From NCBI GenBank assembly GCA_026874595.1, contig CM049306.1, positions 86,565,142 through 86,629,141 on the forward strand: a stretch of DNA of 64,000 bases, in the 5' to 3' direction. Both the position numbers and the translations under genes were made by a program. Source of the stretch: Sipunculus nudus. Lineage: Eukaryota; Annelida; Sipuncula; Golfingiida; Sipunculidae. A model generated the notes under the pieces. It searched no databases. It saw only the letters and a program-made list of their open reading frames with translations, and was not told the origin of the DNA. Below, piece after piece: positions 14,353 to 62,276 of the stretch; the stretch's first letter is position 1; each line of letters begins with the position of its first letter.

Positions 14353-14491
14353 ATGGGCGTGGGTGTCGTACGGTTGTTAGTTATCTTTGTTTTGTTTATT
14401 AATATCTCATCACAGGGGGAACCATGCGGGGAAGGGGAAAATCAAGACAGCTGTGATCAAGCAACACAAGAGAAGAATAAGTATAAAGAAG
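14353..14491 (+). CDS. POGLUT1: POGLUT1 exon 1: start codon and signal peptide
   Basis: ATG at 14353 is followed by a hydrophobic stretch ([16 protein letters not shown]) typical of a cleaved signal peptide, then an acidic/Cys-containing stem ([10 protein letters not shown]). The exon ends one base into codon 47 at AAG|GTAGGA. The same exon with 4 amino-acid differences lies at 62361, which supports both the start choice and the donor. Confidence 0.85.
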
Positions 14492-17400: not shown

Positions 17401-20400
17401 AAAACAACCATTCCAAATTCGGACAGACCTTTTGGCTGTTTGTTGCTATAAAATTTAAATTGAGGTGTTGTTCTGTTTCATCTGTGGCAAAAATTCAACA
17501 GTATATTTTATGAGCTACACAGCAAAAACACACTTTAAAGCACCATGAAAGTGAGTCTCTTCTAGATGTTTGAAGTATTGCATATTTTCCCCTCAAGGTT
17601 GATACACAAATTGTTTCAACTGTTACCTTAGTTGAGTTTGAAAAATAGTGATCTTGACCTCTGTCTTAAAGGTCAAATCCGCCAATTTCTAAGATTTTCA
17701 ACCTCATAAGGTTTTAACTGTTGCATATTTTTTTTCTATAAATTTGGTATACAAATTGTTTCATCCAGTTTCTGGAAGGGTTAGTAAATCTAGCTTCAAT
17801 CTACATACATACATGATGAACCACATACATAGCAAACCATGCTTATACTACAGTCCTCACACAATATAACCTGAAGTCATTCTGTATCTCCTTCACTTTA
17901 ACCACTGCCTTGTTAAGCAAGTTTTGGGGTTCAACCACCAGGCCTGGCACATGGCCAAGAATTATAATGAGGCTGCAGGTTGAAAACTTGCAGTTTGATC
18001 CCACGCTCTCTTTGGTCTGAATACAATTTTTCCCCCTGTCAGCAGCAGTTAAAGTGAAGGAGATGTCAAACAACTTCAGTGTATCACCTCTTCATGATGA
18101 ATGTAGATTTATTCATTAATAACATAATCTTTTTTAGACACTAGATGGAGCCACTATTTACAAAAGATCAAGAAAGCTGTGGAGGATTACTCAGAGTGTA
18201 TTCAGGACAATTGCTCATGTCACATGGAGTAAGTAAATTTAATTCCTACACAAGACAAGCTCAACCCACCCATGTGATCAGTCTGTGTGTTTGCATGCAC
18301 ATGGCTTGACCTTATCTGAACCCTTTGGGTGATAATTTATATGCAAACTTCAGATTTATATATAATTTGATGAAAACTGTACATGGGAGTTACACACAAT
18401 TATACTATATAGATATAATCATAAAATCCCAAGTTGACATTTAACTGTTTGTATCTGCTGAAGCCAAGTTTCACAGATGATATGTTTTTGCAGGCTTTTA
18501 TGGAGTCATATGTGAACTGGCACCTTACAAAGATTAATTGGTAGCCTACAATGATCCTTTTTGCATTGTGTCCATCTGTACTTCTTTTTTAGTGTATATG
18601 TGCATATCTCAGGAATGGTTTGATATATTTGGCTGAAATTATGCATGTACCAGTAAGTGCAAATCTGTTGACTTTTAACTTTACTTTTAAGAATGGTATT
18701 CTTTAATTCCAGTGTAATGGATCGGGACTTATCCATTTGGAAGGATGGAATCAGTAAGGCAGACTTTGATTCAGCTTTAAAGAGAGATGTAGGAGTCCAC
18801 TACCAGATCATCAACCATAAGTTATACCGGGACGTGGAATGTATGTTTCCATTCAGGTACAGATGGTCATCTTAACAAGGGTTTCTGGGGTTCAACATAC
18901 ACATGAAAAGTCCACATGACCAATTAGCATGCTGGAAATTTATACTGGTTAGCCCTGGTTGTAGGAAAATTTAAAAGACAACTGTCTTAGCTATACAGTG
19001 AAGTCTTGTTATAGTGAATATGTTTGTTCCATGGGAATTAGTTCTGGAAAACAAATTTCTGTTGTAATGAAATTTCTGCGTACTGTTGCGTGGCAGAAAA
19101 TTGATAAAAGCACACACGCACACATGAACATTCATCCAAAAAGAACAAAAAGTTCAAATCAAATAAAACGTGTTTATTACATAATGAACATATATACAAA
19201 ACAAAATTTACAACTTTAATGTACATAATCTGTTGACAAATTCTCTTGATAGAAAAATCTGTGATGCTAGCCTGTTTATAACCGTATGGTGAATCAAGCA
19301 CTGTGGCGGCATTCCAAAGATTCTCCAGTATGTTTGCCCTATCTGCGGCCTCTGGTTGCTGTTTGAAGAACCTGATTGCGGCCTGAAGACCATCTCTGGC
19401 ATTAGCCCTCTTTACAGGTTTGACCGCCAAATCATTCACGTCTCTGTCTATTTCACCTTCCTCCTCCTGGTCCGCTGCTGCTCCAATGATGGACAGAATA
19501 CTTGCATTGACCATCGCCTTCGGTTTCTGCAGCTGAATCGACCGCGGCATACTGCTCCACCCCCAGTGGCGTTTCCATCCCAAGACTCCTGATGTCTGCC
19601 TCAAGTGCCTGGAAGAAGCAAGTGTTCTTCTCCTCAATGGACCCTTGGTTTTCTGGTGTTGCGCCTGGCAAAAAGAGCATTTCATCATTGATGGAAGCCC
19701 CATGTATTTGCTTGTCAGTCACCCACATGAAGAGTGCCTTCTCCATTTCTCTATGCTACCCCCTGCGAAATCAGATCACCTGGCTTGAATCGTTGGCGAC
19801 ACCTGACCACTTGTCTGCTGCGCTCAGGATATCGGAGACTGTTGAGGTGCGAACACGGACACTCAACCATGACAGGCAGTAAACAGTGGTGACATAACCA
19901 CTTGACTATGGCCTGGGCGTAAAAACCTGCCCTGTCACATATTAATTAGCCTGTCATTGTCGGCTGGGTTTAACAAAGATCAAATGACTGGGGAAACTTA
20001 GACCTGACCGCTGCCACTTAAGTTCATTATAACGATTCTGACTCCATCGGCGAGGTTCATTTTGTTTCATGTAAGTCCGTTCAGATCCGGAACTCGAGTT
20101 TTCCGTTATATCGAAGCCAATTTTAACTTTCACTCATTCGTTCCCTAGAGATTTGTCCATAACTCAAGTCTTCCGTTTTAACGGACCCTGTTATAACGAG
20201 ACTTCACTGTAGATTGTTCTTTGTTTGGATTCAAGCCAACTTTGGAGGGAACAAAGATAATATGTAGAAGGTATACAGTGAAATCTCCCTTAAAGGACTA
20301 CCTGCAGGAACAACCAAAGTTGTGTTTTCTAGAGTTAGGAGGTCATGTTAGCAGGAGGTTTTAAGATAATTTACATTATTCCAGGACCAAAAATAGTGGT

Positions 20401-23400
20401 CATCTCAGTGGAGTGTTCATGATTGCTGGGTGGTCATCAGGAGAGATTTAACTGTATATATTCCACACCAATTTTTGTTCTCTTTTGTCATGAAAATTTT
20501 TATTCCTGTTTAATATTCAACCACATAGTTAAAGAATCATTATACGAAAATGCACAGTAATCAATAGAATGGATGGAATCATTTTTTACCTTTTTGCCCC
20601 ATTTGTTTAATGGTTGATCTGTTAAGTTTTTATGTAATGCTTTTCATAAATGTATGATGAGTTTTAAACATGGAATCAAAAAGCAAGATCTGTTTTCATA
20701 CCATTTATTTTGTTTAACTTCAGAGCTTCACTTGTTTGGATGTATGTTTGAATATGAATAATTCATGAATCATAGTATGAATATATACCCTACTGATGAT
20801 TAAATATTGGTTGCTTTTCTGGTGCTTGTGTCCCTGCATGGTGATAATTAATTTATCATTGTTTAGACTGACTCGATAAGAATTATTATTGCTTTATAAT
20901 GCATTTGATGTTTCCATAGGACTCTGCTGATCAAAAAATTTCATAGTTTGCATATATGGTGCGGAATCTTTTCCCTGTTATCTCATTAACTACTCAACCA
21001 ATTATTACCAACATTTAAACATACTTTTTACAATTTTCATACTTTTTTGTAACCCAAAATGTTTTTTCCACTTGATGATTTACTTTATTCTTTTAAACCT
21101 TCTTCTGCCAATATCTGTGGGTGCCTTTCAATGAATTATAAAGAATTATATGATACACTGTTCTCTAGGTGTGCAGGAGTGGAACATTTTATTTTGAAAC
21201 TTCTTCGGAAACTTCCAGACATGGAATTAGTAATCAACTTCAGTGACTTGCCAATGGTCCACAAGCGCCAGAAACCTGTACCTGTATTCTCATTCAGCAA
21301 ACCCGTGAGTTCTTGTTGATAATGTGGCTGTATCTGATACTGTCTGTACTACAGGTGTAAAGGGGTGGAGTATTTTCTGCTGCGTTTGCTCAAGAAGTTA
21401 CCAGATATGGAGTTGTTAATCAACTGTCGTGACTGGCCACAGTCACCAGTCTGGCAGAAAGCCATGCCAGTGTTTTCTTTTAGCAAACCTGTAAGTACAC
21501 TAGCTGCCAATCCAGTTCCCCAGTTGTTGTGTACCAGTATTTACTGTAAAGGATGTTTCACTTAAACTGTCCATCACCAAACCAATATTTCTTATTGTTT
21601 TATCGAGTCAGCAAGAAGGCAAACATATCTCTTTGATTAGTTCTTATTTTACCAATGCACTTTAAATATAGTTATCTCTCATTATTATTTCATAGGAGCA
21701 TCATTGTTATGATACAAAACAGAGTGTACTCTTAGTCCCCCTTTAGTGAAATATATACGTTATATCATTTATATTATCAGAGACATCAGTAAACTTCTCT
21801 ATTTAAATAATAAAGTAACCAGGGACCAAAGTTTGCCATAAAAATACTAGAGCTTTTCCTCAAAATAACAAATTGATTTATAATAAATTTGTTTTATTTA
21901 AACCACAGTATGAAGAAAATTATGACATCATGTATCCAGCGTGGACGTTCTGGGAGGGAGGACCCGCCGTGTGGCCCATTTATCCAACCGGACTCGGACG
22001 GTGGGATGAGCAGAGGAAGATCATTCCAAGGTCAGAAGTTATATTATTTAAAATCTGTACCGGCTCTAGGACAACTACCCCCAGACAATTATATCCCCCC
22101 CCCAGTCATTTACCCCTTAGACTATTACCCCAAGACCATTATTTCCCAGACAATTGCCTCTCTAGTTTAGAACATACACTGTTATAAGTAGTAGTTGAAT
22201 TTGAGAATAATATGATGGAAGATATTTAATATGTTGCTTCCAATGTGTTTTTCAACAGTGACTTATAAAAATAGAATGTGTACTACTTACAAGAAAAACA
22301 AAGAAAAAAACAGGTGGTATTTAATATATTTCAGAACAAATATTTTTAATGTAAAACCAAAGAAAAACCATTAAATGTTCATTACATGCCAAAAGCCTCT
22401 TCCTAATCCAATACATGTATATCCATAAACGATTAGTTCCATTGCACCAAAGAAATTGTTAGGGGACTTTATTGTTGGAAGTTATTGACCATAGGATTAT
22501 TTTCAAGGGGGGGGGCATTGTCTTGGGGCAGGGTAGTTGTAGGGGGGGGGATTTTTCTGGGGGATGGTTGTCCTTTTGCCCCTGTACCCATTATATACTA
22601 ACTCAAGCTGTTGTATAGCATTTAGATAAAATGATTAGATTAAATATTGAATTGAAAATGATTATAGATTAAATAGCATTTAATATGAACCATAATTCTT
22701 AAACAGAATTGAACAACATCAGGGTGGTACAGAGTTACCAGATTACTTTTAACAAAATCTGGTATGTCAGCACATGAAACATATTATTTTCATTTGTATT
22801 GAAACATTTGAACACATTTGAACATAACCCTGATAGTTTTCAGCTAAAAACAATCAGGAAACATATCCACTAAGCACCATTTCTATTTATTAGACAAAAG
22901 ATATTAATTTAAACAACTGATTGCTAATTCCAGATTAGTGTCAGAGGCTTAAACAATTATAAACTTGGACTATATACAGGACTTTTTCATTCACAGTGAG
23001 GCTGCAAAATGGCCGTGGGAGAAAAAGAAAAACCAGGGTTTTTTCCGAGGGTCACGAACCAGTTCTGAGAGAGACCCACTGGTGTTGTTATCTCGCAGTG
23101 ATCCCCACTTGGTTGATGCCCAGTACACTAAAAATCAAGCCTGGAAATCAAAGGCAGTGAGTTTATCATACGTGCATGGCTGTACAAACTGAAGCAGATT
23201 GAGTGTAGGTGTCTCATGGTGTACAAGAATATTCTGGTGATTGGGTCTGTATAACAGCTACATTTTTCACTTTAATTAGTAGACACTGATGCTTGTTTTG
23301 CTGATATTTTTCTGTCAGTTAGAAGAAAACAATAAGGGTTAAGTGTAGTTTCTACCTTGTCTAGCTCTTCCTAAATATTGTATGACCTTAAGTAGGATAT

Positions 23401-29400: not shown

Positions 29401-32400
29401 CTAATAACTTATAAAATTTACAAAATACAGATCTAATTTTGGGTATACAATTGAATCTTAATTAAACAAAGTTATATACTTAAAAAAAATTCTCTAGCTT
29501 CAATAATTTTCATGAAACCTGAGTAAATATTTTTCCTGATTTTTTACAAAGTCAATTTTGTTTGGGCACATAACTTAAAACAATTACGCAATACTGACAT
29601 CATTTCTGGCATGTGCATAGCGAATGTATAGAAAAATATGTATATTATATATGATCAAAGTCAGATCAGTGGTTTTGATACTAGGCAGTCCTGAAGTGTA
29701 ACAAAGGGTTTTTAATGAAAAAATGAAGTTTTTCATTAATATCTCGAAGGAATTAAGTTCTGGTGACCAAATTCTTGGCATGGTAGGGGATTTTGGAGAC
29801 ATCTTACTGTATGCCTAATTTAAGGAACTTAGAGCTGAAGCTGGGGAGCTGAGCTCTAGCAAACTGCATAACACTAGGTTGATGTAAACAATATGTGACA
29901 TGGTGCTTGAAAACTTGAATAAAATCTACAGTTTTTGATCAACTGGTTTCAAATCTTAAATGTTAACAGTTGAAATGCTAACAAAAACATGCTTATTTTT
30001 GCTAATATTTCAAAAAATTTAAAAGATTTTGATCAAATTTGGGTATACAATTTAATTTTGATTAATAAAAGTTATATTACTGGAAAAAAAGTGCTTAGCT
30101 TTAACAAGTTTTGTGTTAAGTGATCAAATTTTTTTCCTGATTATTTACAAAATGCATTATGTTTGAGCCCATAACTTTTTTAAATTATATAATACAGACC
30201 CAATTTCTGGCATGTACATAGGAACTATATAGAGGATTATTCATGGTAAATATGAGGAAAAACAGATGAGTGGTTTTGATATTAGGCAGTCCTAAAGTGT
30301 GAAAATAGGATTTTAATAAAAAATTGAGGTTTTTCCTTAATTTCTCAAAGGAACGAAGTCGCAAAGACCCAGTTTTCGGCTTGGTAGGAGATCTTGGGGA
30401 CATCTAACATTATGCTGAATTTTGGATTCCTAGGTCTTACGGTTTCAAAACGTGCCACATCTACGGACGGACGGACGGACAGACGGACGGACGACGGACA
30501 ATGGACCACGACTATAGCTCAGATGACTTATAGTCAGCTGAGCTAATAAAATATCAATATAATATATTATAAAAAACAGCATCATGAATGTTAAAAAACA
30601 GATTGAGTTTATGAAAAATATGTCATATTGAAATAATTGAAAATGCTTGACACGTTTGCTGACGATATGATGACCAGTGCATTAGCCATTACTGGCTCCC
30701 GAGTTTTACACATCTGGACCATAACTGGGCATTTCCGAAAAAAAAAATAGTCTATAACTTCGGATGGATAACTTTGATTTTTTGCATTATGATAGAAAAA
30801 ACCTTATTCTATCAATAAAAATAAAATGATACTTTTCATTGATGTAGTAGCATTTTAATTATGCTTCGATCATTGCTTTATTTTAAAAAATCCTTGCTTC
30901 CGACTTCGGACTTCCTAGTTTTACACATAGCCATTTGGGAATCCCCTACCGGAAGTTATGGTTCTCCCACTGACAGATGTGGAGACGAGTTTTTCTAGTA
31001 AAACCAGCCTCGGTATTAAAAACTGCTGCACGAATACATGTAAGTCAACCATGGATGTAATAATTATTATTTTCCCCAACAGAATAACGTCACTTTTTGT
31101 CTTAACTCAGGAAAATGACAGCTCAAGAAGTAGATGAAAATGAAAAAGTAGTGTCCGAAATGGCGTGCACATCTGCACATACTAGAATTGATGCGAACCC
31201 AATAGCTCGTACTGTCACCCCATTGTCTTCAGTATATCTAAAATCGACGTTTGGGGTGACAAGCTGTCGCTAGTTAAACCAGCCTCGGTATTAAAAACTG
31301 CTGCACGAATACATGTGAGTCAACCGTGGATGTAATAATTATTATTTTCCCCAACAGAATAACGTCACTTTTTGTCTTAACTCAGGAAAATGACAGCTCG
31401 AGAAGTAGATGAAAATGAAAAAGTAGTGTCAGAAATGGCGTGCACATCTGCACATACTAGAATTGATGCGAACCCAATAGCTCGTACTGTCACCTTATTG
31501 TCTTCAGTATATCTAAAATCGACGTTTGGGGTGACAAGCTGTCGCTACAATAGACACAGATTATCACCCAGTTTATTCTCAACATATTAGCACAAGTGCA
31601 TGTGTAATGATTTTGGATAAGTTTAATCAGTAATTTGTGAACAGTTAAATACACTGTGTATGATGTCAAATATGATTTTAATAAATTACTATTTTATATC
31701 TGTCTTGAACTAAGTATTTATCAAAGTGCTTAAATTTTGGCTTCTTGACAATTTCTTAACATTTCTGAATGTTAGTTTTGATTGATGTTTAGTTGAACAG
31801 TTGCAAGGTCTGGATAATTCCGACAAATGGATATCTGCTTGAAAGAAACGGTGACTACCTACATTTTATGGAACTAATGTCCTCCATTCACATGGTTATA
31901 TAATGCAATCCACAGCCTGGCTACTCCTCTGCTCATTTTTGGACAAAAGTCTTAAACATATGTATATCAATGCATTTCTATTATTATTCACTTCCAGGAT
32001 CTTCAATGTAATATTAATTATTTATTTTTTTTTAACTTCCAGGATACTCTAGGGGAGGAACCTGCAAAGGAAATTAAGCTGGAAGAACATTGTAAATGGA
32101 AGTAAGTACAATCTGCATGTGAAGAATTATAAAAACTAAATATCAACTGATCAAGTACAGTTTAACATTATATTAAGATTTTCTACCATTACAAAGAAAG
32201 ACTTTGTAACCACAGTGGAAGATCTGCATGGTATGAATTGTTTTTTCTGAAAATGAAGACTGCAATATTTATCAAGATTAGGGATGTAATAGAATAAAAT
32301 TTATATCAATAAAAAACAACTGATTTTCTTGCAGTTAACTTTATAACCAGTGGAGTCATAAATATAAAGTGCTGTATGGAATGTATGGAATGTGGATGGG

Positions 32401-35133
32401 GGGGGGGTTAAAGTCATAAAAGTTGATTTGGACAATTTGCCATCATAGTAAATCAAAACAAAATACTAAGTCTACTTAATAATGGAAAACTCTTTGGTGT
32501 CAGCAACCTATTTTATGCATTGTAAATTGATGGAAGGAGTCACATTGAACAACATATAACTAAAATTGATATTTTTCAGGTTGTTTTTGTTGGTGCAAAA
32601 TATGCTAAATGATGCTGTCCACAATATAATTTGTACATTGTACAGTTATGCATGTCACTATAACTGTTTTTCTGATACCAGATACCTGTTTAACTTCCGT
32701 GGGGTGGCAGCTAGTTTTCGTTTCAAGCACCTGTTTCTGTGTGGATCTCTGGTGTTCCATGTTGGTGATGACTGGCTGGAGTTCTTCTACCCTGCCATGA
32801 AACCCTGGGTTCACTATATACCTGTTCCCAGAGATTTATCAAATGTTAGGTAAGTACCATCTGTATCTTGAGCTGAGGCTACCATAAAGTTCCGCCTTGC
32901 TTAGTGTTTCAAAACTTTGTTTTGCCAGGTTGAGCAATCTGAAGTTTAAAATTACAATGAAACCTGTGTAATAAGACCACCCCTTGGACTGGCCAGAAAT
33001 GGTCTTAATTCACAGTAGGTCTTATCAGACAGGTCAGGTATACCCTATGTGGATGTTTTGGTTCACTCAAGGGTGGTCTTAATGGACATGTGGTTTTAAA
33101 AGACAGGTTGTCTTTCCAGGTTCCAATGGATATTGTTTGTGTTATATTGTAGTTAAACTTTTGTTCACATGGGTTGAAAATTTGTGATATTTGCAAAAAG
33201 GGAATTTTCGAGAAAATATTATCTCTGTAAATAAAACACCCTGTTTACAGAGATTGACAGTCATTAATAGCATAATCAGCTTCTTGGGAGTGTTATTTGT
33301 GTTAGCAGGGTCAAACTTTGGTAGGCAAAAGTTTGGTATTAACTAATATATCATATTATCAATTAAGCAATGATTGATCAATAAAAAGTTCCACTCAAAT
33401 GATTTTCCCTTTATTCCCAGTCAGATTGTTAAGATTTGCTCATATACTAAATAATTAACAAGGTAATGGGTATACTGTATGTAGGTTACCATAAGAACAT
33501 GTAAATGGAACCTTTGCAAAAGACTGTAAAAGTTGAAATTGTGAAAATTTAACCTCACAAGTATGAATCCAACCAGAGTATATGTACAGTAACATCAGCA
33601 TAATCCACAGATTATATAACATGTTCTAGAAAAATTAACCTTGTGTTGACACAGCCTTTTAAATAGTATCTACTATGAATACCATCATGCAACAAGACAA
33701 GAATGTCTACCATCATGCAACATGGTTAGCATGAAGTATCAGTAAACAGTTACCATAAAGACTTAAATAACTAAATTACTCCTCCCATATACAATAAAAA
33801 AAAAGCTTTGTCATAAGTGGATAGGAATCTGCATTGTCTATATCATATTCAAGTGGCAGTGTACGATATCAGGGCTATCTACCACACCTCTTAACTATAA
33901 GTAGACTGACCCCTTAATAAGCTACTCCTATGGTAAAGTAGGCTGTCCTTGGCAAAATGCAAAATTTCAGTTATTTTCTGGTGCCTGAATGATCTAGACA
34001 TTGGCCCAGCAGCCCACGTCTTGGGCAGCATTTTGTTAAGTCATTTTTACATGCTAAGGTGCAAAACATTAATCCACATAAAGCAAAACAGCAATAGCCA
34101 CCATGATTTTTATAGCTCCCAGGTTATCACTATTTTAATTAAAAGATTCACAGTATATATTTTTTTAATTAGTAATAACAACCATTCCAGGTTTGTTCAG
34201 ACCTTTCCACCAGTTAGAGATTTAAAACTTATATTAGTGTGTTGTTCTATTTTATCTGTGAGAAAAATCCTACAGTAGTATGTGTAACACAGATGTGTTA
34301 ATCTTTATCTTTCATGTTCTTAACTTGTAAACATTTTATGTCAGCTATTTCTGCTAGATATTCTCTGAAAGGGATGCATTATCTTCAAAAATGATTGTCA
34401 TATTTTCACCTACAAGTAAACCATGTCTCTTCTCCTGCAGGGAACTGTTGGAGTTTGTTCGAGAAAACGATGATGTGGCAAAAGAAATAAGTGAAAGGTG
34501 AGTGACAATAGAGGGACAGTAGCAGATAAGCCTGTCAAGATTTCATCAGGTATTCAAGATTTCATGTGGTAATATTACCCCATATTTATCTGTTGCATTT
34601 TATGGGGCACTATACCTAAAATCTCTAGGTTTCAGCTTATTAAAAATAATAACTAAGACTAACGATTAAAACCATAATTATTCAGTCACTTATTCCATAT
34701 CATCTACATTTTATTTTCATATCAAGCTCTACTGATTTTACAAATTAATTCTGGGATTAATTCTGAATGGAACTGGAATTGAAGTATAATTGAATTTAAG
34801 GAAAAACTGTACAAATTGGAATTTTATTATTATATTTTAAAATGAAATGAATTGGAATTAATAATTTCCAAAACTGAGAACTGAATTGAATCACAGTTGA
34901 AGTTTCACAGAAATTCTTTACTTGAGATTGAGTTGGAACTGGTGCCAGGTCTCCCATTGACAGTTCTAAATGTTATAATCTTTCTTTACAGAGGTCGCAA
35001 GTTTATCATGGACCACCTGAGAATGGAGGATGTGGAGTGTTATTGGCTGAAGCTGCTAAAACGATACGCCAAACTGACCACGTGGAAGCCAAAACGAGAC
35101 AAGAAGCTTATGCAGATAACCTCATCAACATAA
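14353..35133 (+). CDS. POGLUT1: POGLUT1 / rumi protein O-glucosyltransferase, 10 coding exons
   Basis: This is an ER-lumenal CAP10-domain (GT90) enzyme that transfers glucose from UDP-glucose to serines of EGF repeats, including those of Notch. Exons: 14353-14491, 18138-18228, 18713-18856, either 21169-21304 or 21355-21490, 21909-22030, 22997-23156, 32043-32101, 32682-32849, 34441-34497, 34990s (34992)-35133. All borders are GT/AG and phases agree, giving 1218 nt (405 aa; human POGLUT1 is 392 aa). Residues 1-22 form a signal peptide. Family hallmarks are NCSCH in exon 2, HYQI in exon 3, the catalytic Asp region in exon 4, [20 protein letters not shown] in exon 5, [13 protein letters not shown] in exon 6, and [20 protein letters not shown] in exon 8. 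The end, ...MQITSST, lacks the KDEL-like signal of the human (KTEL) protein. Intron 6 is the largest, 8.9 kb, and full of repeats. Confidence 0.93.
16905..17080 (+). repeat. Hairpin-ended dispersed repeat, degraded copy (intron 1)
   Basis: It begins TTTTAGCTCAGTGATGCTTA and continues with CCTTAGCAGGGTACAAATC. The same order (AGCTCAG hairpin, then GTCCGT..AGCAGGGCACA) occurs at 53612 and relatives at 23560 and 30430-30545. Only the start of the family is recognisable here. Confidence 0.4.
17090..17530 (+). repeat. Dispersed repeat family A, copy 2 (intron 1)
   Basis: It shares long collinear similarity with 33860-34290: CTCTTAACTATAAGTGGACT, CCAATATGGTAAAGTAGGCT, CTGGTTCCTAAATGATCCAGA, GGCCCAACAGCCCA and, further on, TTAACTAATAGACTGGCAATATAT. 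No coding frame is conserved between copies. Confidence 0.6.
18138..18228 (+). CDS. POGLUT1: POGLUT1 exon 2
   Basis: The acceptor is TTTTTTAG|ACACTAG and the donor GGA|GTAAGT. It encodes [20 protein letters not shown] and [11 protein letters not shown]. The CxxxNCSCH cysteine cluster is the conserved N-terminal disulfide region of POGLUT1 proteins. Confidence 0.88.
18713..18856 (+). CDS. POGLUT1: POGLUT1 exon 3
   Basis: The acceptor is TTAATTCCAG|TGTAATG and the donor TTCAG|GTACAG. It encodes [20 protein letters not shown]... and ends with [12 protein letters not shown]. The HYQI and LYR..-CMFP motifs are typical of the start of the CAP10 domain. It enters and leaves with two bases of a split codon. 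Confidence 0.88.
18996..20209 (-). mobile_element. Internally deleted pogo/Tigger-like DNA transposon in POGLUT1 intron 3
   Basis: Ends are CAGTGAAGTCTTGTTATAGTG on the left and, on the other strand, CAGTGAAGTCTCGTTATAACAG at the right, both flanked by TA (18994-18995, 20210-20211), as in pogo/Tc1-mariner elements. Minus-strand frames near the right end encode [17 protein letters not shown] and [20 protein letters not shown], matching the CENPB-type DNA-binding region. Frames near the left end encode [18 protein letters not shown] and YKQASITDF, like the Tigger C terminus. The catalytic DDE region is missing and frames are shifted. It is a 1.2 kb non-autonomous derivative. Confidence 0.8.
20276..20454. 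mobile_element. 179-bp pogo-type MITE
   Basis: The left end CAGTGAAATCTCCCTTAAAG and the right end (other strand) CAGTTAAATCTCTCCTGATG are inverted copies flanked by TA. The interior has no coding capacity. It lies 67 bp beyond the Tigger-like element and has similar but not identical termini, so it is a separate insertion from a related family. Confidence 0.7.
21169..21304 (+). CDS. POGLUT1: POGLUT1 exon 4a (alternative, diverged catalytic segment)
   Basis: This exon is 136 nt, with acceptor TTCTCTAG|GTGTGC and donor CCC|GTGAGT, and encodes 46 residues. It shares 30 of 46 residues with exon 4b 50 bp downstream. Both contain KLPDMEL.IN and end PVFSFSKP. In 4a the segment around the presumed catalytic aspartate (residue 151) reads [11 protein letters not shown], whereas family members read like RDYPQ..KW. 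So 4a keeps the aspartate but loses the neighbouring Arg, aromatic and Gln residues. Splice sites are intact and there are no stops, so it looks functional, perhaps with changed activity or acceptor/donor preference (inference). Confidence 0.82.
21355..21490 (+). CDS. POGLUT1: POGLUT1 exon 4b (alternative, canonical catalytic segment)
   Basis: This exon is 136 nt, with acceptor GTACTACAG|GTGTAA and donor CCT|GTAAGT, the same length and phase as 4a. It encodes [14 protein letters not shown] around the catalytic Asp, close to the human RDYPQVPKW. If 4a and 4b were joined, 4b would be read from GTG TAA, an immediate stop. If both were skipped, exon 5 would be out of frame. Exactly one must therefore be used. 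Confidence 0.85.
21909..22030 (+). CDS. POGLUT1: POGLUT1 exon 5
   Basis: The acceptor is AAACCACAG|TATGAAG and the donor CCAAG|GTCAGA. It encodes [18 protein letters not shown] then [19 protein letters not shown]. The [18 protein letters not shown] signature is one of the strongest identifiers of POGLUT1. Confidence 0.92.
22058..22586. mobile_element. Foldback element with C-rich/G-rich repetitive arms (intron 5)
   Basis: The left arm starts TACCGGCTCTAGGACAACTA and holds several degenerate units of the form GACnATTAnnCCCC. The right arm, read on the other strand, starts TACAGGGGCAAAAGGACAAC and holds the same kind of units. The arms (about 130 bp each) flank an AT-rich centre. No target duplication is evident. 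It is a long foldback or MITE-like element. Confidence 0.5.
22997..23156 (+). CDS. POGLUT1: POGLUT1 exon 6 (nucleotide-sugar site)
   Basis: The acceptor is CATTCACAG|TGAGGC and the donor GGCA|GTGAGT. It encodes [20 protein letters not shown] followed by [17 protein letters not shown] and [28 protein letters not shown] is the conserved motif that contributes to UDP-sugar binding in GT90 enzymes. Confidence 0.92.
23560..23710 (+). repeat. Hairpin-ended dispersed repeat, partial copy (intron 6)
   Basis: It starts TTTAGCTCAGCTGACTGAAA, then GTCATCTAAGCTATAGCGAT and CTTTGTCCGTCGTCTGTCC. The first about 30 bases form an imperfect hairpin. The following segment (GAGACCTTCAAATTAAGTGGTCATC) also matches DNA near 53990-54020. 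Confidence 0.5.
24421..24677 (+). repeat. About 250-bp repeat, copy 1 (intron 6)
   Basis: It is bounded by related strings TGTATGTAAACTTGGAAGTC and TGTGTATAACTCGGAAGTC. An inverted, diverged copy lies at 30693-30928, where both ends read TGTGTAAAACT.GG.AG.C on the minus strand. Shared internal features include GGAAGC...AAGG, ATAAAGCA, AAAATGCTA and GATAGAATAAG..CTTTATT. The two copies could pair across about 6 kb of intron. Confidence 0.45.
26850..30545. repeat. Decayed tandem array in POGLUT1 intron 6
   Basis: Units at about 26850-27420 and 27900-28460 share AATTGTTGCAAATAATATTTT, CTGTTGACAGTTCA, ACAGTTG..ATA, a G-run and GATGGGAGTTACAA (period about 1.05 kb). Units at about 29384-29830 and 29985-30420 share GGGTATACAATT, AATTTCTGGCATGT, TGGTTTTGATA..AGGCAGTCCT and GACATCTTA/GACATCTAA (period about 0.6 kb). 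The array ends with (GGAC)n and a hairpin terminus at 30430-30545. No coding frame is conserved. A GA-rich microsatellite (27650-27735) and a 20-G run (29050-29069) lie inside. Confidence 0.6.
30430..30545 (-). repeat. Hairpin-ended dispersed repeat terminus (minus orientation)
   Basis: (GGAC)n-rich DNA is followed by AGCTCAGATGACT, TAT, AGTCAGCTGAGCT, a near-perfect hairpin (12 of 13 pairs). Read on the minus strand it matches the starts at 23560 and 53612: AGCTCAGCTGACT hairpin, CTATAG, then GTCCGTCGTCCGTCC. Confidence 0.65.
30693..30928 (-). repeat. About 250-bp repeat, copy 2 (inverted relative to 24421)
   Basis: On the minus strand this reads TGTGTAAAACTAGGAAGTCC at one end and TGTGTAAAACTCGGGAGCC at the other, about 215 bp apart. 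It aligns in inverted orientation with 24421-24677. It sits immediately before the 275-bp tandem duplication. Confidence 0.45.
30995..31544 (+). repeat. Recent 275-bp tandem duplication carrying splice-like sites
   Basis: 30995-31269 and 31270-31544 are direct copies with only a handful of differences (for example AAGTAGATG preceded by CTCA or CTCG; TCACCCC or TCACCTT). Each contains a donor-like site (ACAT|GTAAGT or ACAT|GTGAGT), an acceptor-like site (TTAACTCAG|GAAAATG) and an ATG (31115, 31390). This resembles a duplicated short 5' exon, intron and start exon. No further exons are identified. Confidence 0.8.
31390..31590 (+). CDS. Possible small hypothetical ORF in POGLUT1 intron 6
   Basis: The ATG at 31390 lies 5 bases after an acceptor-like CAG and opens a 66-codon frame starting [20 protein letters not shown]. 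The duplicate at 31115 has the same frame but stops earlier, after ...GVTSCR. I do not recognise the protein. Differences between the copies include amino-acid changes (Q/R, P/L). It may be an exon of a nested gene, a transposon fragment or chance. Confidence 0.2.
   Translation: MTAREVDENEKVVSEMACTSAHTRIDANPIARTVTLLSSVYLKSTFGVTSCRYNRHRLSPSLFSTY
32043..32101 (+). CDS. POGLUT1: POGLUT1 exon 7
   Basis: A 59-nt exon after the 8.9 kb intron. The acceptor is TTTTAACTTCCAG|GATACT and the donor GGAA|GTAAGT. It encodes [20 protein letters not shown], aligning with the human segment [20 protein letters not shown]. A decoy CTTCCAG lies 50 bp upstream at 31991-31997. Confidence 0.85.
32682..32849 (+). 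CDS. POGLUT1: POGLUT1 exon 8 (CAP10 core)
   Basis: The acceptor is GATACCAG|ATACCTG and the donor GTTAG|GTAAGT. It encodes [20 protein letters not shown] and [20 protein letters not shown] followed by [16 protein letters not shown]. This is the most conserved part of the CAP10 domain and closely matches the vertebrate protein. Confidence 0.93.
32956..33127. mobile_element. Pogo-type MITE-like repeat (intron 7)
   Basis: The left end CAATGAAACCTGTGTAATAAG and ACCACCCCTTGGA, and the right end (other strand) CATTGGAACCTGGAAAGACAA and GACCACCC, are similar inverted sequences. The AACCTG...AGACCACCC pattern is typical of short pogo-related MITEs. The target duplication is not clear. Confidence 0.4.
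33860..34290 (+). repeat. Dispersed repeat family A, copy 3 (intron 8)
   Basis: It is collinear with 17090-17530 (CTCTTAACTATAAGTAGACT, TATGGTAAAGTAGGCTGTCC, GTGCCTGAATGATCTAGACA, AACAACCATTCCAGG). It ends about 150 bp before exon 9. Confidence 0.6.
34441..34497 (+). CDS. POGLUT1: POGLUT1 exon 9
   Basis: The acceptor is TCTCCTGCAG|GGAACTG and the donor GAAAG|GTGAGT. It encodes [19 protein letters not shown], matching ELLQFVKANDDVAQEIAER of the human protein. It is 57 nt and keeps phase. Confidence 0.9.
34992..35133 (+). CDS. POGLUT1: POGLUT1 exon 10 and stop codon
   Basis: The acceptor is TTTCTTTACAG|AGGTCGC. It encodes [20 protein letters not shown] and then [20 protein letters not shown] up to TAA at 35131-35133. 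RG.KFI..HL.M.D..CYW is conserved. The last residues (QITSST) are not an ER-retrieval signal. The +2 frame over the same bases ends ...NLINIIK, also not KDEL-like. AATAAA overlaps the stop codon at 35133-35138. Confidence 0.85.
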
Positions 35134-35138
35134 TAAAA
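35133..35138 (+). terminator. Possible polyadenylation signal of POGLUT1
   Basis: AATAAA overlaps and follows the TAA stop (TAATAAAATAAAG). It would give an extremely short 3' UTR. Other AATAAA strings further downstream are possible, so its use is uncertain. Confidence 0.3.
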
Positions 35139-42708: not shown

Positions 42709-45498
42709 CTACCCTTCCCCCACTTTCTCTAGTGGGGTGATAATACTGGGTTTCCGTCTGCCACTGATCTTTTGCCAGTCGAGCCACATTTTGAGGTCTT
42801 TATAAAACTTCTCTTGCTTCACCTTTTCGACATAGCCTTTGCTCAACCTTAGTATGTGGTCGCTCACATACTCTATATCTGCCTTCTCGTGAAGCACAGA
42901 TATCCGCGTGCGGGGCGGGAGTCTCAAGGCCGTCCTTAAGGCTCTGTTTTGAAGCCGTTGAAGTTTTTTAATGTGGTGCTCTTTGGCGGTGATCAGGGCT
43001 ATGCAGCCGTATGTCATAACCGGTCTGATCCAGGCTTTATAAAGGTATATCAAACTTTGGGTAGACATGCCTCCTGATCCTGCTTTTAGCACTCTTAAGC
43101 AGTTGAGTCTCGCTTTGACCCTCTGTTCGATATCCTCTATATGAGCCGCCCATGTGAGTCTCTTATCAACCGTCAGACCCAGAAATTTTATCTGGTCTGT
43201 GAATTGGATTGGTTCCCCGGCCAATTTCAGTTCTGGCGCTTTGCCGGCCTTACTGCCTTTCAGGTGCCTACCGAATTTACAAGCCTGCGTTTTTGTCGCA
43301 TTGACTCTTACTCGCCATTTGGCGCACCACTTTGTCACCTCGTCTAGACCGGCCTGTAACCTGGGTACTGCCCTCTTGCTATGTGTCCATAGCGCAGTGT
43401 CGTCCGCAAATTGGCTCGTCGCCCCCGTGCGGACCCCTCCTTTCTCGGACAGGCTAGGCATGTCGTTGACGAATATGACATAGAGCAGCGGGCTGAGAGC
43501 TGAGCCCTGCGGTGTGCCTGCGGCGGGTTCGATCTCATGCGACTTAGCGTCACCTACTCTGACCCATAGCTTCCTGTCACTTAGGAAGGACGAGAGGAGC
43601 CTCACAATGCGAGTCGGTAGTTTTGCCTGCGTTGCGATCTTATACCTTAGACCATCCCGCCATACTGCGTCGAAGGCTTTCTCGACGTCTAGGAATACAC
43701 CTATAGTATCATTAGATCGCTGCAGGCATTGTCCCACCGACTGAGTCAACCTGAACAGTTGGTCATTTGTTGACCTGCCCTTACGGAACCCGCTCTGATT
43801 CGGGTTAAAGAATTTTGCTTCCTCCAAGTGACCACTGATCCTGCCAGCCAGTATTCGTTCCAGCACTTTGCCCAGAATTGGCAGTAGGCTGATGGGTCGG
43901 TAGCTTTTCGGCAGCGAGTGATCCTTTCCCGGCTTCGGGATCATGATCACGCTCGCTCTTTTCCATGCCCTTGGGAAGTACCCCAGTTTCAGACACGCGT
44001 TGAACACAGATGTGAGCGCTTCCAGCCCTTCCTCCGGTAGGTTAATCAGCACTTCCCTGGTGAGGCCGTCCTCCCCCGGGGCTTTTCTGCTTTTGAGTTT
44101 TTTCAGCTTCCTGCTGACTTCCGCTTTTGAGATCGCTCTCAGTAGCGGCTCGTCCTCTGCTGTCTGAGCGTAGCAGCTCTCTACCCTTGCCAGAGGCGAG
44201 TATAACTCGTTTGCACCTTGTCTTACGTGCCGATCAACCTCCTCCTGTGTTTGGTCGTCGAACTGGGGTCCCGTCGGGACCTTGTGTATGTTCCGGAGCG
44301 TCTCCGCGAACAAATTTGCCTTGTCCTTTTCCGTACTAGCCACCGTTCCCATCGGGCCTGTGAGGTCTGTAGTTCCGACCGATGGTTTGTTCATCGAGCC
44401 CGTGTATTGGCGGACCTGTCGCCAAAATTCGCCCACTGATATTCTGTGGTCCATACCGCTCGTGAACTTGTACCATTCCGCCTTTTTCTGGGCTTTTATT
44501 GCATTTTTCACCTCCCGACTAATAGCATTGTATTGGGATTTTAACTCCTCAGTTCGGAGTTGGATCTGAAGCCTTCTGATCCTCCTTCTTTCCCTTACAA
44601 GTGCTTTAATCGTTGGGGTGAATGACCACCAGTTACGGTTTTTCCTTTCCACCATCGGACACGCTCGGTCCAGGCAATCTCGCATTTCAGAGGTCAGTTT
44701 GTCGACTAGGGTGTCGATTCCTTCTGGGGTCGATGGTTCAGCGATACCTCGGAGCCTGTCTGCCAATTCATTTTTAAAGAGCCTCCAGTTTGCCTTTCTC
44801 CAAGGCCTCACCATTTTGGGTGGCTTTCTGTTCGCTCTCCAATCGAGCTCTAAATGAATTGGCATGTGATCGCTGCCTATATCTTCCCCTACATGAAATT
44901 TACTGACCAGTCCTACCTCGGGCGATACGATTGCCAGATCGAGTATGTTCGTTCCACCGGTTGTGGGGTTCACCCTGGTCGGGCTCCCATCGTTCATTAT
45001 CACCATACCGTACCGATCTATGCAATCCATCAGTGCTTTCCCGTTCAGATTAGAGGATCTGCTGCCATACGAGGTGTGTGGGGCATTTAGGTCCCCTAAC
45101 ACCACGTAGTGGCTGCTGTTCCTCTTAATCTTGTCAAAGAGTTGTGCCCTGGGCCGTGACTGTGGCGGGTTGTAATATACTATTACATCGATTGCCGGGT
45201 CGCCGCTGTGGACAGGTTCAACTCTAACCGTTAGAGCTTCTATGTCCATCCTTCCTAGCCAGTTTGTTTGGCGGTATACTAGGTTCTCTTTGATCAAGAG
45301 AGCCACTCCGCCTCCCATATTACCGTCTGGCCGTCCCCTGTGTAGCAGGTTATAGCCGGTGAAGGAAACGTTTCTGGTCAGCTTAGACTCGCTGATAGCC
45401 ATGATATCTACGGAATGCCTGTGGATATAGTTGAGTATCTCTAACCTCCTTCCATACAGGCCATTCACGTTTGCGTGGCATAGTTTGAGCTTAACCAT
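42709..45498 (-). CDS. LINE ORF2: endonuclease / reverse transcriptase (929 aa)
   Basis: The start is ATG at 45498-45496, inside the end of ORF1 (ATGGTTAA overlap), giving MVKLKLCHANVNGLYGRRLE. An earlier in-frame ATG (45627) lies within ORF1 and is less likely. The N-terminal ~215 residues are an APE-type endonuclease: HANVNG, AISESKLT, GGGVALLI, VVLGDLNAPHT, NILDLAIV, GSDHMPI. The central RT has KAPGEDGLTREVL, YRPISLLPILGKVLERI, NQSGFRKGRSTNDQL, FLDVEKAFDAVW, GTPQGSALSPLLY and the catalytic FADD (residues 697-700). A C-terminal region with KKLQRLQNRALRTAL follows. It nicks target DNA and primes reverse transcription there. No stops or frameshifts are seen. It ends with TAG at 42711-42709. 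Confidence 0.92.
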   Translation of the reverse strand: MVKLKLCHANVNGLYGRRLEILNYIHRHSVDIMAISESKLTRNVSFTGYNLLHRGRPDGNMGGGVALLIKENLVYRQTNWLGRMDIEALTVRVEPVHSGDPAIDVIVYYNPPQSRPRAQLFDKIKRNSSHYVVLGDLNAPHTSYGSRSSNLNGKALMDCIDRYGMVIMNDGSPTRVNPTTGGTNILDLAIVSPEVGLVSKFHVGEDIGSDHMPIHLELDWRANRKPPKMVRPWRKANWRLFKNELADRLRGIAEPSTPEGIDTLVDKLTSEMRDCLDRACPMVERKNRNWWSFTPTIKALVRERRRIRRLQIQLRTEELKSQYNAISREVKNAIKAQKKAEWYKFTSGMDHRISVGEFWRQVRQYTGSMNKPSVGTTDLTGPMGTVASTEKDKANLFAETLRNIHKVPTGPQFDDQTQEEVDRHVRQGANELYSPLARVESCYAQTAEDEPLLRAISKAEVSRKLKKLKSRKAPGEDGLTREVLINLPEEGLEALTSVFNACLKLGYFPRAWKRASVIMIPKPGKDHSLPKSYRPISLLPILGKVLERILAGRISGHLEEAKFFNPNQSGFRKGRSTNDQLFRLTQSVGQCLQRSNDTIGVFLDVEKAFDAVWRDGLRYKIATQAKLPTRIVRLLSSFLSDRKLWVRVGDAKSHEIEPAAGTPQGSALSPLLYVIFVNDMPSLSEKGGVRTGATSQFADDTALWTHSKRAVPRLQAGLDEVTKWCAKWRVRVNATKTQACKFGRHLKGSKAGKAPELKLAGEPIQFTDQIKFLGLTVDKRLTWAAHIEDIEQRVKARLNCLRVLKAGSGGMSTQSLIYLYKAWIRPVMTYGCIALITAKEHHIKKLQRLQNRALRTALRLPPRTRISVLHEKADIEYVSDHILRLSKGYVEKVKQEKFYKDLKMWLDWQKISGRRKPSIITPLEKVGEG

Positions 45499-47521
45499 GA
45501 CGTCCCCCCACCGACTTCTTAAAACCGTTGCTACCGGCCTTTTTGGATTTGGGCTGCCTATAGCTGCCCTTATCCTTTTTGGATGATGCGTTACTGGCTG
45601 GTACCGATCGAGCTCTCGGCTCCTCACGGTCCTTTTCCGTTCCTCTGTCCGACAGCGCCGTCCACGACAATTCTAGGCCTAGGTGCCTAGTAGCCGACTT
45701 CTTCACCACTGTTACGGCCCGTTCTCTGGGCTCATTGACTTTCGCCAGCTTCAGCGTTTCTGTGATCACTTCACAGAGAAACTTTATCAGTTTCTCTGGG
45801 TTGATCTCTAGCATAGCCTGGCTTTCAGCCACGGCTTGCTCCTCCGCCGGAGCTACCCCTTTTTCCGTTACATTGCGGTTTTTGGCCGCGGCCCGCCCTC
45901 CGGCAAGCCTGGTGGACGTGCTACCGCTAGCCACGACCTGCCCCCTTTCGGGAGCGGGAGCCTTCTGGGTCCTTACAGCCTCTGAGGCCGTGGGTCCCCG
46001 GGAGCCTCTGGTGATTTTGGCGTAGGTCACGCCAGTCTGGTGGGCTTTGCCTTTCCTGCCTTCCGCGCTCTTGCTGGTCGGCTTCCCTTCAGTGCCGTGT
46101 TTAGCCGTTGTCGGCCTCTGCCGGGCACCTTTGAAGGCTGTACAGCCCCTGTACATCGCCCTGTGGTCGCCCCCGCAGTTTGCACATTTTGGCTTGCTCT
46201 TGTCGGCTGCCCTTCGACAATCTTTGGCATAGTGGCCTGCCTCGCCACAGTGCCTGCACTTGCCAGCCTTAGTGCATACTTTGGCCGTGTGCCCGAACTG
46301 GTAGCAGTTCAGGCACTGGATCGGCTCTACGGCCTTCCGGAAAGCCTCGCAGCGTATACGCTCGCTCCCGTACCTGAACCCGTGCTCGAGTGCCCTCGTA
46401 GCGCTCTCGCTCTGCTGAAAGTGCACGAGCACCTTCCACACCGGCTTTTTTCCGTGCCTGAGCCGCACGACCTCTTTGGCTTTTAAGCCCTGTTCATTTA
46501 ACTCCGCCATGATCTCCTCTGTTGAGATATGCGGGCTCATTCCTCTGGCCACCACCGATGTTTGTTGGGTGCCCTCTGGTTTGGCTTGCTTGTTGCCCCG
46601 TGCAAGCTCCACCACTACCTTGGGCCCCGCCTTGATCAGTGGGCGCCAGTCGGGCCTGGCTTCCCTTGCTGTTTCGGGGAGCGTGACCACCATTACTCCC
46701 CTGTCGAACTTTGTCTTACAGGCGGAGGTGCCCGTGCACTCCGTCACCAGCCTGTTCATTTTTCTACTGTTCTGCCTGAGGGCTGCCGGTAAGCCCCTGA
46801 CCCAGTACCGAGCCAAGCCCTCTTTCTCCTGGTCGGCCACCTCACCTTCCGGCTGGCCGTTCTCCGTGCTCCCTGTCCGTACAGGCGAGCTTCGGGTCGG
46901 AGTTCCGTCCGCTGCTTGATTAACCCGGGTCCCCGGTTTGGTGGGCGACCCGCTATCACCTGAGCGGACTGGATTCGAGGGCGTCGATCTCTCGATCGAG
47001 CTCGGGGACAGTGTCCTGAGAACCGTCGGCCACTCAGGCGATCCCACGTCTATGATTGGAGACCCCGACCGTTCGGGCGTCCCCGCCTTGTCCGGCCCCG
47101 GGACCTCCGGGGTGACCACTCCCGGGGTCTGCGGGGTTACCACTACCCTGTATGAATCGTTGCCCCTCTCCGGGGAGTCATCGAATAGCTCGAAACTGGC
47201 GTCCCCTGTCGGGGTGGCCGGTACCGAACTCGGGGAACCCAGCGTAGAGCTTGGCGAGTTCGATGCCCCTTGCATCGCTCCCTCGCCTGCTGGGCTCTGT
47301 GAGGCCGAACCCTTGTTCGCGCCTCGACCCTCCATCTCGGTCCGCACGTCCGCCGCCTGCGCTCTACCGATGCTCTCCGTGATGAGCCCCGTAATCATCT
47401 GGAGGGCGTCAGGCCCGTGCCTTGCTGCCTGCTGCAGCCCACCTGTGATCTGGGTGAGACCCGGGATCACTTCTCTTTCCCTCTGAGAAAGCACCAACAG
47501 CCTGGTAAGTGCTTCCGCCAT
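45491..47521 (-). CDS. LINE ORF1: nucleic-acid-binding protein with three CCHC zinc knuckles (676 aa)
   Basis: ATG at 47521 lies 28 bases from the last 5' hairpin. Residues 1-230 are low-complexity, rich in Ser, Pro, Thr and Gly. Residues about 300-395 form the domain that precedes knuckles in Jockey ORF1 proteins (SPHISTEEIMAELNEQGLKA, KPVWKVLVHFQ, RCEAFRKAVEPIQC). Three knuckles follow near 402-459: CLNCYQFGHTAKVC, CRHCGEAGHYAKDC and CANCGGDHRAMYRGC. The tail is basic and Ala/Lys-rich. It probably packages the element RNA. It ends in TAA at 45493-45491, overlapping the ORF2 start. Confidence 0.9.
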   Translation of the reverse strand: MAEALTRLLVLSQREREVIPGLTQITGGLQQAARHGPDALQMITGLITESIGRAQAADVRTEMEGRGANKGSASQSPAGEGAMQGASNSPSSTLGSPSSVPATPTGDASFELFDDSPERGNDSYRVVVTPQTPGVVTPEVPGPDKAGTPERSGSPIIDVGSPEWPTVLRTLSPSSIERSTPSNPVRSGDSGSPTKPGTRVNQAADGTPTRSSPVRTGSTENGQPEGEVADQEKEGLARYWVRGLPAALRQNSRKMNRLVTECTGTSACKTKFDRGVMVVTLPETAREARPDWRPLIKAGPKVVVELARGNKQAKPEGTQQTSVVARGMSPHISTEEIMAELNEQGLKAKEVVRLRHGKKPVWKVLVHFQQSESATRALEHGFRYGSERIRCEAFRKAVEPIQCLNCYQFGHTAKVCTKAGKCRHCGEAGHYAKDCRRAADKSKPKCANCGGDHRAMYRGCTAFKGARQRPTTAKHGTEGKPTSKSAEGRKGKAHQTGVTYAKITRGSRGPTASEAVRTQKAPAPERGQVVASGSTSTRLAGGRAAAKNRNVTEKGVAPAEEQAVAESQAMLEINPEKLIKFLCEVITETLKLAKVNEPRERAVTVVKKSATRHLGLELSWTALSDRGTEKDREEPRARSVPASNASSKKDKGSYRQPKSKKAGSNGFKKSVGGRHG

Positions 47522-47527
47522 TCTTTT

Positions 47528-47703
47528 ATTCAGTGCCCTCTCACTGAATTGTCTAGATATACTCCCGCTCGGGCAGTATTTTGGTTTCCCGACCTTTCTC
47601 GATATATTCCTTTTGGGAATATATCGGGCTTTTCCTCTCGCCCTTTTTGACCTCGCTCCTCTGTCGGGTCTTATTATTTTATTCCCGTTCGGGCAATAAA
47701 ATA
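47528..47703 (-). promoter_or_regulatory. Four consecutive hairpins in the LINE 5' UTR
   Basis: Inverted repeats: 47528-47549 (ATTCAGTG/CACTGAAT, perfect), 47559-47579 (ATACT-CCCG / CGGGCAGTAT), 47600-47626 (CGATATATTCC/GGAATATATCG, perfect 11 bp) and 47675-47703 (TATTTTATT-CCCG / CGGGCAATAAAATA). The second and fourth share the same CCCG-NN-CGGGC core with one unpaired base at the same place. They occupy the whole region between the 5' end and the ORF1 start, where LINE internal promoters and translation signals lie. Confidence 0.7.
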
Positions 47704-47742
47704 CTTTTGGATTCTCTCTCCGCCTCCTGCCTCTATTTTCGC

Positions 47743-47753
47743 CACGGCACTCT
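47743..47753. repeat. Target-site duplication of the LINE, right copy
   Basis: CACGGCACTCT is identical to 42048-42058. The DIRS sequence resumes here with CAACTGGGCCGCC, which continues the RT-RNase H connection frame. Confidence 0.9.
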
Positions 47754-61897: not shown

Positions 61898-62276
61898 CGT
61901 GTCTAATTAAGGACTCCTCCCACCCCACAGACAAAACAGATGACATCGCAAGCAAATGAAACAGCCAAAATGACACATGTAGAATAAGCGCCTGACGCCG
62001 ACCTGAACCCGCGAGACGATCGCGCATGCGCGATGCCAACGCCTTTAGACGCGAGTAATAGCCTGTAATCTTATGGTAGGCCTATGTGTTGACAGGCGTT
62101 GGCTGTCGTTAAAAAACAACGCGAATCAACGTGGATCAACGGCATATTATGCAATGACTGGCGCAAATGTTGGCTTTGACCCACGTTGACTCCCGTAAAT
62201 TGGCGCCAGTCATCCCCAACCAACGCGATCACTACTTTGCATGGCGTAAAAAACGGCGCTAACTGTGAGATGACAA

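Follow-up and report, generated by a model that had tools for sequence, protein, structure and literature searches.

Notch depends for its function on O-glucosylation by POGLUT1, an enzyme generally regarded as a single protein with a single specificity. The locus studied here raises the question of whether one POGLUT1 gene encodes two forms of the enzyme that differ in the segment carrying the catalytic base. The window, a stretch of 64,000 nucleotides (G000:C1:86565142-86629141) in an assembly of 1.43 Gb, contains an intact POGLUT1 gene of the GT90 family (gene W, window 14353-35136, plus strand), in which ten exon positions were rebuilt (Table 1). The fourth position is occupied by two similar exons, 4a and 4b. 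Judging from sequence, we consider it likely that they are a genuine mutually exclusive pair derived from a tandem duplication of POGLUT1 exon 4.

The original prediction had named the gene as POGLUT1, and comparison with solved structures confirmed this. The W protein with 4b matches human POGLUT1 (5l0r) with an E-value of 1.1e-157 and Drosophila Rumi (5f84) with an E-value of 3.2e-129, whereas its match to POGLUT2 (9w47, E 5.8e-36) is far weaker than that to POGLUT1. In addition, the Glyco_transf_90 domain (PF05686) is matched by the exons of W. Based on these matches, W was assigned to POGLUT1 and not to POGLUT2/3. A C-terminal KDEL-like ER retention signal is a trait of POGLUT1 and GT90 proteins. 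The C-terminus of W (...MQITSST) lacks such a signal. Of six homologs whose ends were inspected, P0002, P0003, P0024 and P0036 are without a KDEL-like end, P0022 ends in HDEF, and P0001 looks chimaeric. In human POGLUT1, Asp133 acts as the catalytic base (PMC5543122). The catalytic Asp and the substrate-contact residues of human POGLUT1 and Drosophila Rumi, which belong to the same family as W, are kept in W (PMC5543122). All 14 of the 14 human sites, the catalytic Asp and the named contacts, are present in W with 4b. With 4a, Asp133 and Arg107 are present, and the remaining 12 named sites fall in exons common to both isoforms. The W product is a putative O-glucosyltransferase acting on EGF repeats.

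Table 1. Exons of genes W and T and other features of the window and the assembly. Positions without a contig name are those of the window.
Feature	Position	Strand	Remarks
W exon 1	14353..14491	+	Start codon; N-terminus signal peptide-like by eye; donor gtagga
W exon 2	18138..18228	+	
W exon 3	18713..18856	+	Phase-2 end (AG of Arg107 codon); carries CMFPFR segment
W alternative exon 4a	21169..21304	+	136 nt, 45 whole codons
W intron between 4a and 4b	21305..21354	+	50 nt, GT-AG; stop codons if retained
W alternative exon 4b	21355..21490	+	136 nt, 45 whole codons; family-like RDW
W exon 5	21909..22030	+	Phase-0 start; acceptor loop (A172, W174, human numbering)
W exon 6	22997..23156	+	R218, Q240
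W exon 7	32043..32101	+	
W exon 8	32682..32849	+	Donor-sugar turn FRGVAASFR
W exon 9	34441..34497	+	
W exon 10	34992..35136	+	Range has two consecutive stop codons; the first terminates the protein
T exon 1	62361-62499	+	Other T exons beyond the window, same contig, to G000:C1 ~86657142
T exon 4a	G000:C1:86647036-86647170		Beyond the window
T exon 4b	G000:C1:86647219-86647353		Beyond the window
POGLUT2/3-like gene	G000:C11:73634158-73651836	-	Only other locus among 12 PF05686 matches
LINE-type element	42712-45672	-	Between W and T; reverse transcriptase and endonuclease domain
CCHC zinc-knuckle frame	45494-47752	-	Adjoins the LINE reverse transcriptase frame; element span 42712-47752
DDE_Tnp_4 transposase fragment	60398-61048	-	~1.3 kb upstream of T exon 1
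Further frames	61256-61906	-	

The anatomy of the pair and its consequences for the reading frame agree with the original prediction. The two exons are each 136 nt long, share the same phase and are separated by a 50-nt intron. Both have AG acceptors, and the donors read GTGAGT (4a) and GTAAGT (4b); the splice sites were judged by eye and are unscored. Joining 4a to 4b leads to an immediate stop (...FSFSKPV*, at GTG TAA), and reading through the retained 50-nt intron meets stops too. Skipping both exons shifts the frame, with exon 3 ending in phase 2 and exon 5 starting in phase 0. A productive message therefore contains exactly one of the two exons, and either choice gives a single open frame of 405 residues. 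The 30 of 46 shared residues that had been claimed correspond to identity at 29 of the 45 whole codons (16 differ) plus the Arg split across exons 3 and 4. When 4b was used as the query in a six-frame search of the whole genome, 4a was recovered at an E-value of 4.3e-11, indicating that the resemblance between the two is beyond chance.

The swapped residues were described, in human numbering, from an alignment of the isoforms with listed homologs (120 listed of 1,275 found), of which 119 were used after the chimaeric-looking P0001 had been dropped. The catalytic Asp itself is encoded in both exons, and Asp133 of human POGLUT1 aligns with the Asp of each. In the surrounding segment 4b reads RDWPQSPVW and 4a reads SDLPMVHKR, as had been noted. 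The differences had been described as clustered after the Asp. Changes are indeed found there, but they flank the Asp on both sides (131, 132, 134 and 136-140) and also occur elsewhere in the exon. Ten residues that are invariant in the 119 listed homologs (G110, E112, L122, N130, D133, P135, P146, S149, F150 and S151) are kept by both 4a and 4b, and neither isoform of W deviates at any of the 142 columns that are at least 95% conserved among these homologs. R132, W134 and Q136 of 4b are found in 89, 51 and 108 of the 119 listed homologs, while S132, L134 and M136 of 4a are found in 0, 0 and 1. At three other positions the frequencies run the opposite way: H113, I115 and P143 of 4a are found in 113, 103 and 109 of the 119, and the 4b states in 6, 14 and 2. 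F131 (4a) and C131 (4b) are both absent among the listed homologs. By this comparison, each of the two exons retains family-common residues that have been lost from the other. The loop also differs in charge, with a net +3 in 4a versus +1 in 4b over 11 residues.

A query restricted to 4a (residues 126-170) matched one protein, and the 4b control query likewise matched one, so that both searches are uninformative on relatives. P0121, the sole match of the 4a query, was rejected as carrying a 4a-type exon; it reads NTRDHPMASKW. No second species with the pair came up in the searches, which were hardly able to reveal one. The protein database is reduced to representatives at 90% identity, a level at which an isoform that differs at 16 of 405 residues would be concealed. 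As a possible source of 4a, the POGLUT2/3 gene on C11 was examined and rejected (INLGDWPLEKRK). At the exon 4 position, this POGLUT2/3-like gene has LPDMEFFINLGDWPLEKRK.

Both 4a and 4b are apparently under constraint at the protein level. Between them, pS is 0.78, with synonymous sites saturated, and pN is 0.25. We simulated drift of the pair in which one copy evolved neutrally while the other was under constraint. At settings of at least 0.5 substitutions per site per copy, identity at 29 or more of the 45 residues was reached in 0 of 2,000 runs per setting; at lower settings it was reached in 5.4% of runs (0.3) and 52% (0.2). Simulated 4-fold sites differed by 0.54 or more at settings of at least 0.5, and the 6 of 9 such sites that differ between 4a and 4b match these higher settings, nine sites being few. 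Since both exons appear to be selectively maintained, the animal can probably make two forms of POGLUT1.

The neighbouring gene T provides a second view of the pair. T is a tandem paralog of W, and its own 4a/4b pair lies ~61 kb downstream of that of W. Counterparts of every W exon were found in T, which has an open frame of 408 residues with 4b. The presence of the pair in both genes indicates that exon 4 was duplicated before the gene was. In the tree of the exon-4 segment (110 rows), 4a groups with W-4b and T-4b with a support of only 51, which leaves the duplication undated. In a tree of the remaining protein (49 rows, mostly chosen from the listed homologs), W and T join caenogastropods on a long stem and with an SH-aLRT of 87, a placement that would be compatible with a molluscan origin. 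A genome search for a retrocopied spliced message, with exons 2-3-4b-5-6 as the query, found none; its matches were confined to the individual exons of the two genes.

Comparison of the two genes also bears on selection within the pair. In 4a, W and T differ by 4 synonymous changes and 1 replacement, and the probability of at most 1 replacement among 5 changes under neutrality is 0.008 in this small test. In 4b there are 2 synonymous changes and 3 replacements, with no sign of constraint (P 0.29) in a test that is equally small. Across the 319-nt block of 4a, intron and 4b, 10 of 319 positions differ, compared with 10.7% in the neighbouring part of intron 3 (931 aligned bases; binomial P 4e-7), and none of the 48 aligned bases in the 50-nt intron is substituted. 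The low divergence of the block could be due to selection on the exons and the intron, or to gene conversion between W and T. The coding sequences of W and T with 4b have a dS of 0.195 and a dN of 0.040. With this gene-wide dN/dS of 0.21, T looks more like a case of functional divergence than of plain decay.

In T, three bases have been deleted at the 4a donor, including the GT. Of the GT sites that are left, some would shift the frame, and the others lie in frame within the exon but look weak. Because of this loss, T is hardly able to use the full 4a, and it follows that 4a is not needed in every copy.

T also carries changes elsewhere in the protein. Asp133, Arg107, Arg218 and Arg279 are kept. 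Five contacts that are invariant or nearly so in the family are changed (F104Y, A172K, W174R, Q240K and V274K), along with N239K and F271I, and some of these changes involve several bases, such as A172 (GCC to AAA) and V274 (GTG to AAA). The 5 changed among 14 named contacts compare with 22 among 338 other positions (Fisher P 0.002, a post hoc value that is descriptive only). Three of these five contacts, 172, 240 and 274, were named for contacts of the backbone (PMC5543122). T with 4b misses 9 of the 142 conserved columns, while the maximum among the 119 listed homologs is 6. T is no more basic overall than W, with a net charge of +2 versus +3. T-4b reads CLDLPQSPVW, in which R132L and W134L produce a DLP like that of 4a. 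This similarity may have arisen by convergence, or by conversion from 4a over a very short tract.

How could the splicing machinery choose one exon of the pair? Introns of about 50 nt are spliced in many invertebrates. The intron between 4a and 4b contains two branch-point-like motifs (yTnAy), and in the later, better-placed one, the candidate CTGAT, the A is located 33 nt from the donor. In mammalian test introns, a distance from donor to branch point below 47 nt impaired splicing by ~90% or more (PMC11291888). The 50-nt intron would probably discourage direct splicing of 4a to 4b, although the 47-nt limit is mammalian and may not apply here. Residual mis-spliced messages would be removed by nonsense-mediated decay. 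The two isoforms are expected to have a common fold and catalytic machinery. By the known fold of the family, the exchange would affect a helix, a strand with the catalytic Asp at its end and the loop that follows. The most likely role of the swap would be a tissue- or stage-dependent change in how active an EGF-repeat O-glucosyltransferase is or in which acceptors it prefers, which is a guess based on position alone.

The interpretation in the original prediction is supported in part. The POGLUT1 identity and the productivity of single inclusion alone hold, both exons show constraint at the protein level, and the pair also occurs in T. The deleted donor of T 4a speaks against a strict need for 4a, and it is the best single argument that 4a might be dispensable. 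Taken further, 4a in W could be a relic exon that is now rarely or never productively spliced, with 4b doing all the work. T, with its 4a donor lost and its frame with 4b intact, would fit such a history, as would the loss from 4a of the family-typical R132, W134 and Q136 that 4b retains. However, 4a of W has GT-AG sites, no stop, the exact length and the ten invariant exon-4 residues, and it is nearer to the consensus than 4b at H113, I115 and P143. The ratio of 4 synonymous changes to 1 replacement between W and T also speaks against a relic, if it is not a product of gene conversion. We think this history fairly improbable. A different possibility, unlikely but deserving of serious attention, is that both exons are used and that the 4a enzyme is catalytically weak or inactive, acting as a decoy or dosage regulator with no new specificity. 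4a lacks two features that flank the catalytic Asp: an aromatic neighbour, which is Y or W in 117 of the 119 listed homologs, and a polar or basic residue on the preceding side, which is R, H, K, Q or N in all 119. Yet the catalytic base is retained, as are Arg107, Arg218, Arg279 and every one of the 142 columns that are at least 95% conserved.

The pair could also serve as a switch of expression, in which regulated joining of 4a to 4b or skipping of both yields stop-containing messages destined for decay. Both non-exclusive outcomes are indeed stopped or out of frame. A poison exon, however, needs no conserved amino acids, and 4a keeps them; the 50-nt intron probably discourages the joining as well. 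This makes such a switch very improbable. That the pair is an assembly artefact or a product of collapsed haplotypes is hardly credible. No sign supporting it was found, the synonymous sites between 4a and 4b are saturated, the window contains no N, and T has the pair too, with flanking introns that differ from those of W by 9-18% in their aligned parts. We therefore continue to favor a genuine mutually exclusive pair.

Exclusive exons of this kind are already known in other enzymes. One of these is human KHK, a sugar kinase. The catalytic Arg of KHK lies in the swapped one of its tandem duplicated exons and is kept in both isoforms, like the Asp of W (PMC9741552). The exons 6a/6e of coq-2 in C. 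elegans, parasitic helminths, annelids and molluscs are, like those of W, homologous, mutually exclusive and equal in length (134 nt in C. elegans versus 136 nt in W), and they remodel the core of an enzyme (PMC7434440). Unlike W, coq-2 encodes a polyprenyltransferase, and its swap changes the choice of substrate; its splicing was established by RNA sequencing and its effect by exon deletion in C. elegans, whereas for W we infer both (PMC7434440). Drosophila pgant9 encodes a glycosyltransferase in which the choice between exons 8A and 8B alters a charged loop near the active site and the substrate preference (PMC6115407). That swap is located in the lectin domain of a GalNAc-transferase, whereas the swap in W is located in the catalytic domain of a GT90 glucosyltransferase (PMC6115407). 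In OGDH, exons 4a/4b are kept exclusive by an intron of restricted size, in which the branch point is located too close to the donor (PMC7969005). The OGDH branch points were mapped and are distant from the acceptor, whereas the intron in W is 50 nt overall and its motif is only predicted (PMC7969005).

In line with the original prediction, no exon switch in POGLUT1 or Rumi was described among the literature matches listed, a set with subscription papers mostly outside its scope. Two papers naming both POGLUT1 and 'mutually exclusive exon' were, by title and the start of the abstract, about Crumbs isoforms and estrogen receptor beta, and the main text of one review (PMC7803782) contains neither 'isoform' nor 'splic'. 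The best reading is that the kind of exon pair is known, and that for POGLUT1 none is described among the literature matches listed.

If the mutually exclusive pair is genuine, swapping the segment that carries the catalytic base would allow Notch and other EGF-repeat proteins to be tuned according to tissue or stage. The pair would also be a natural experiment on the residues that set activity and acceptor choice, with T as a second natural variant. A broader scenario, which we hold to be unlikely if still worth considering, is that the acceptor site of POGLUT1 has been made switchable in this lineage and that T has fixed a related change. In this scenario, 4a would remove the polar residue 132 and the aromatic residue 134 beside the catalytic Asp and provide a basic loop. 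The locus would then supply O-glycosyltransferases of three kinds, directed at different EGF-repeat targets or at new ones, with one switch operating by splicing and the other by gene duplication, through the altered contacts of T.

Several other features of the window and the assembly were observed. A LINE-type element and its adjoining zinc-knuckle frame lie between W and T, and the transposase fragment upstream of T exon 1 is Harbinger-type (Table 1). The assembly includes bacterial contigs (C60, C61, C62, C66, C72, C74, C75, C89 and C123), which may belong to strains of an associated bacterium not yet described. COX1 matches of 419-420 bits occur in nine places on eight contigs, and three that were translated are nearly identical. 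Among the matches listed, the best relative of the bacterial COX1 is an Oligoflexia record with 59% identity, followed by Myxococcota-like and other records. C123 has another bacterial-looking oxidase, of the cbb3 type. Besides the bacterial genes, the search of the assembly for an animal COX1 returned one fragment of 51 amino acids with a TGA on C5.
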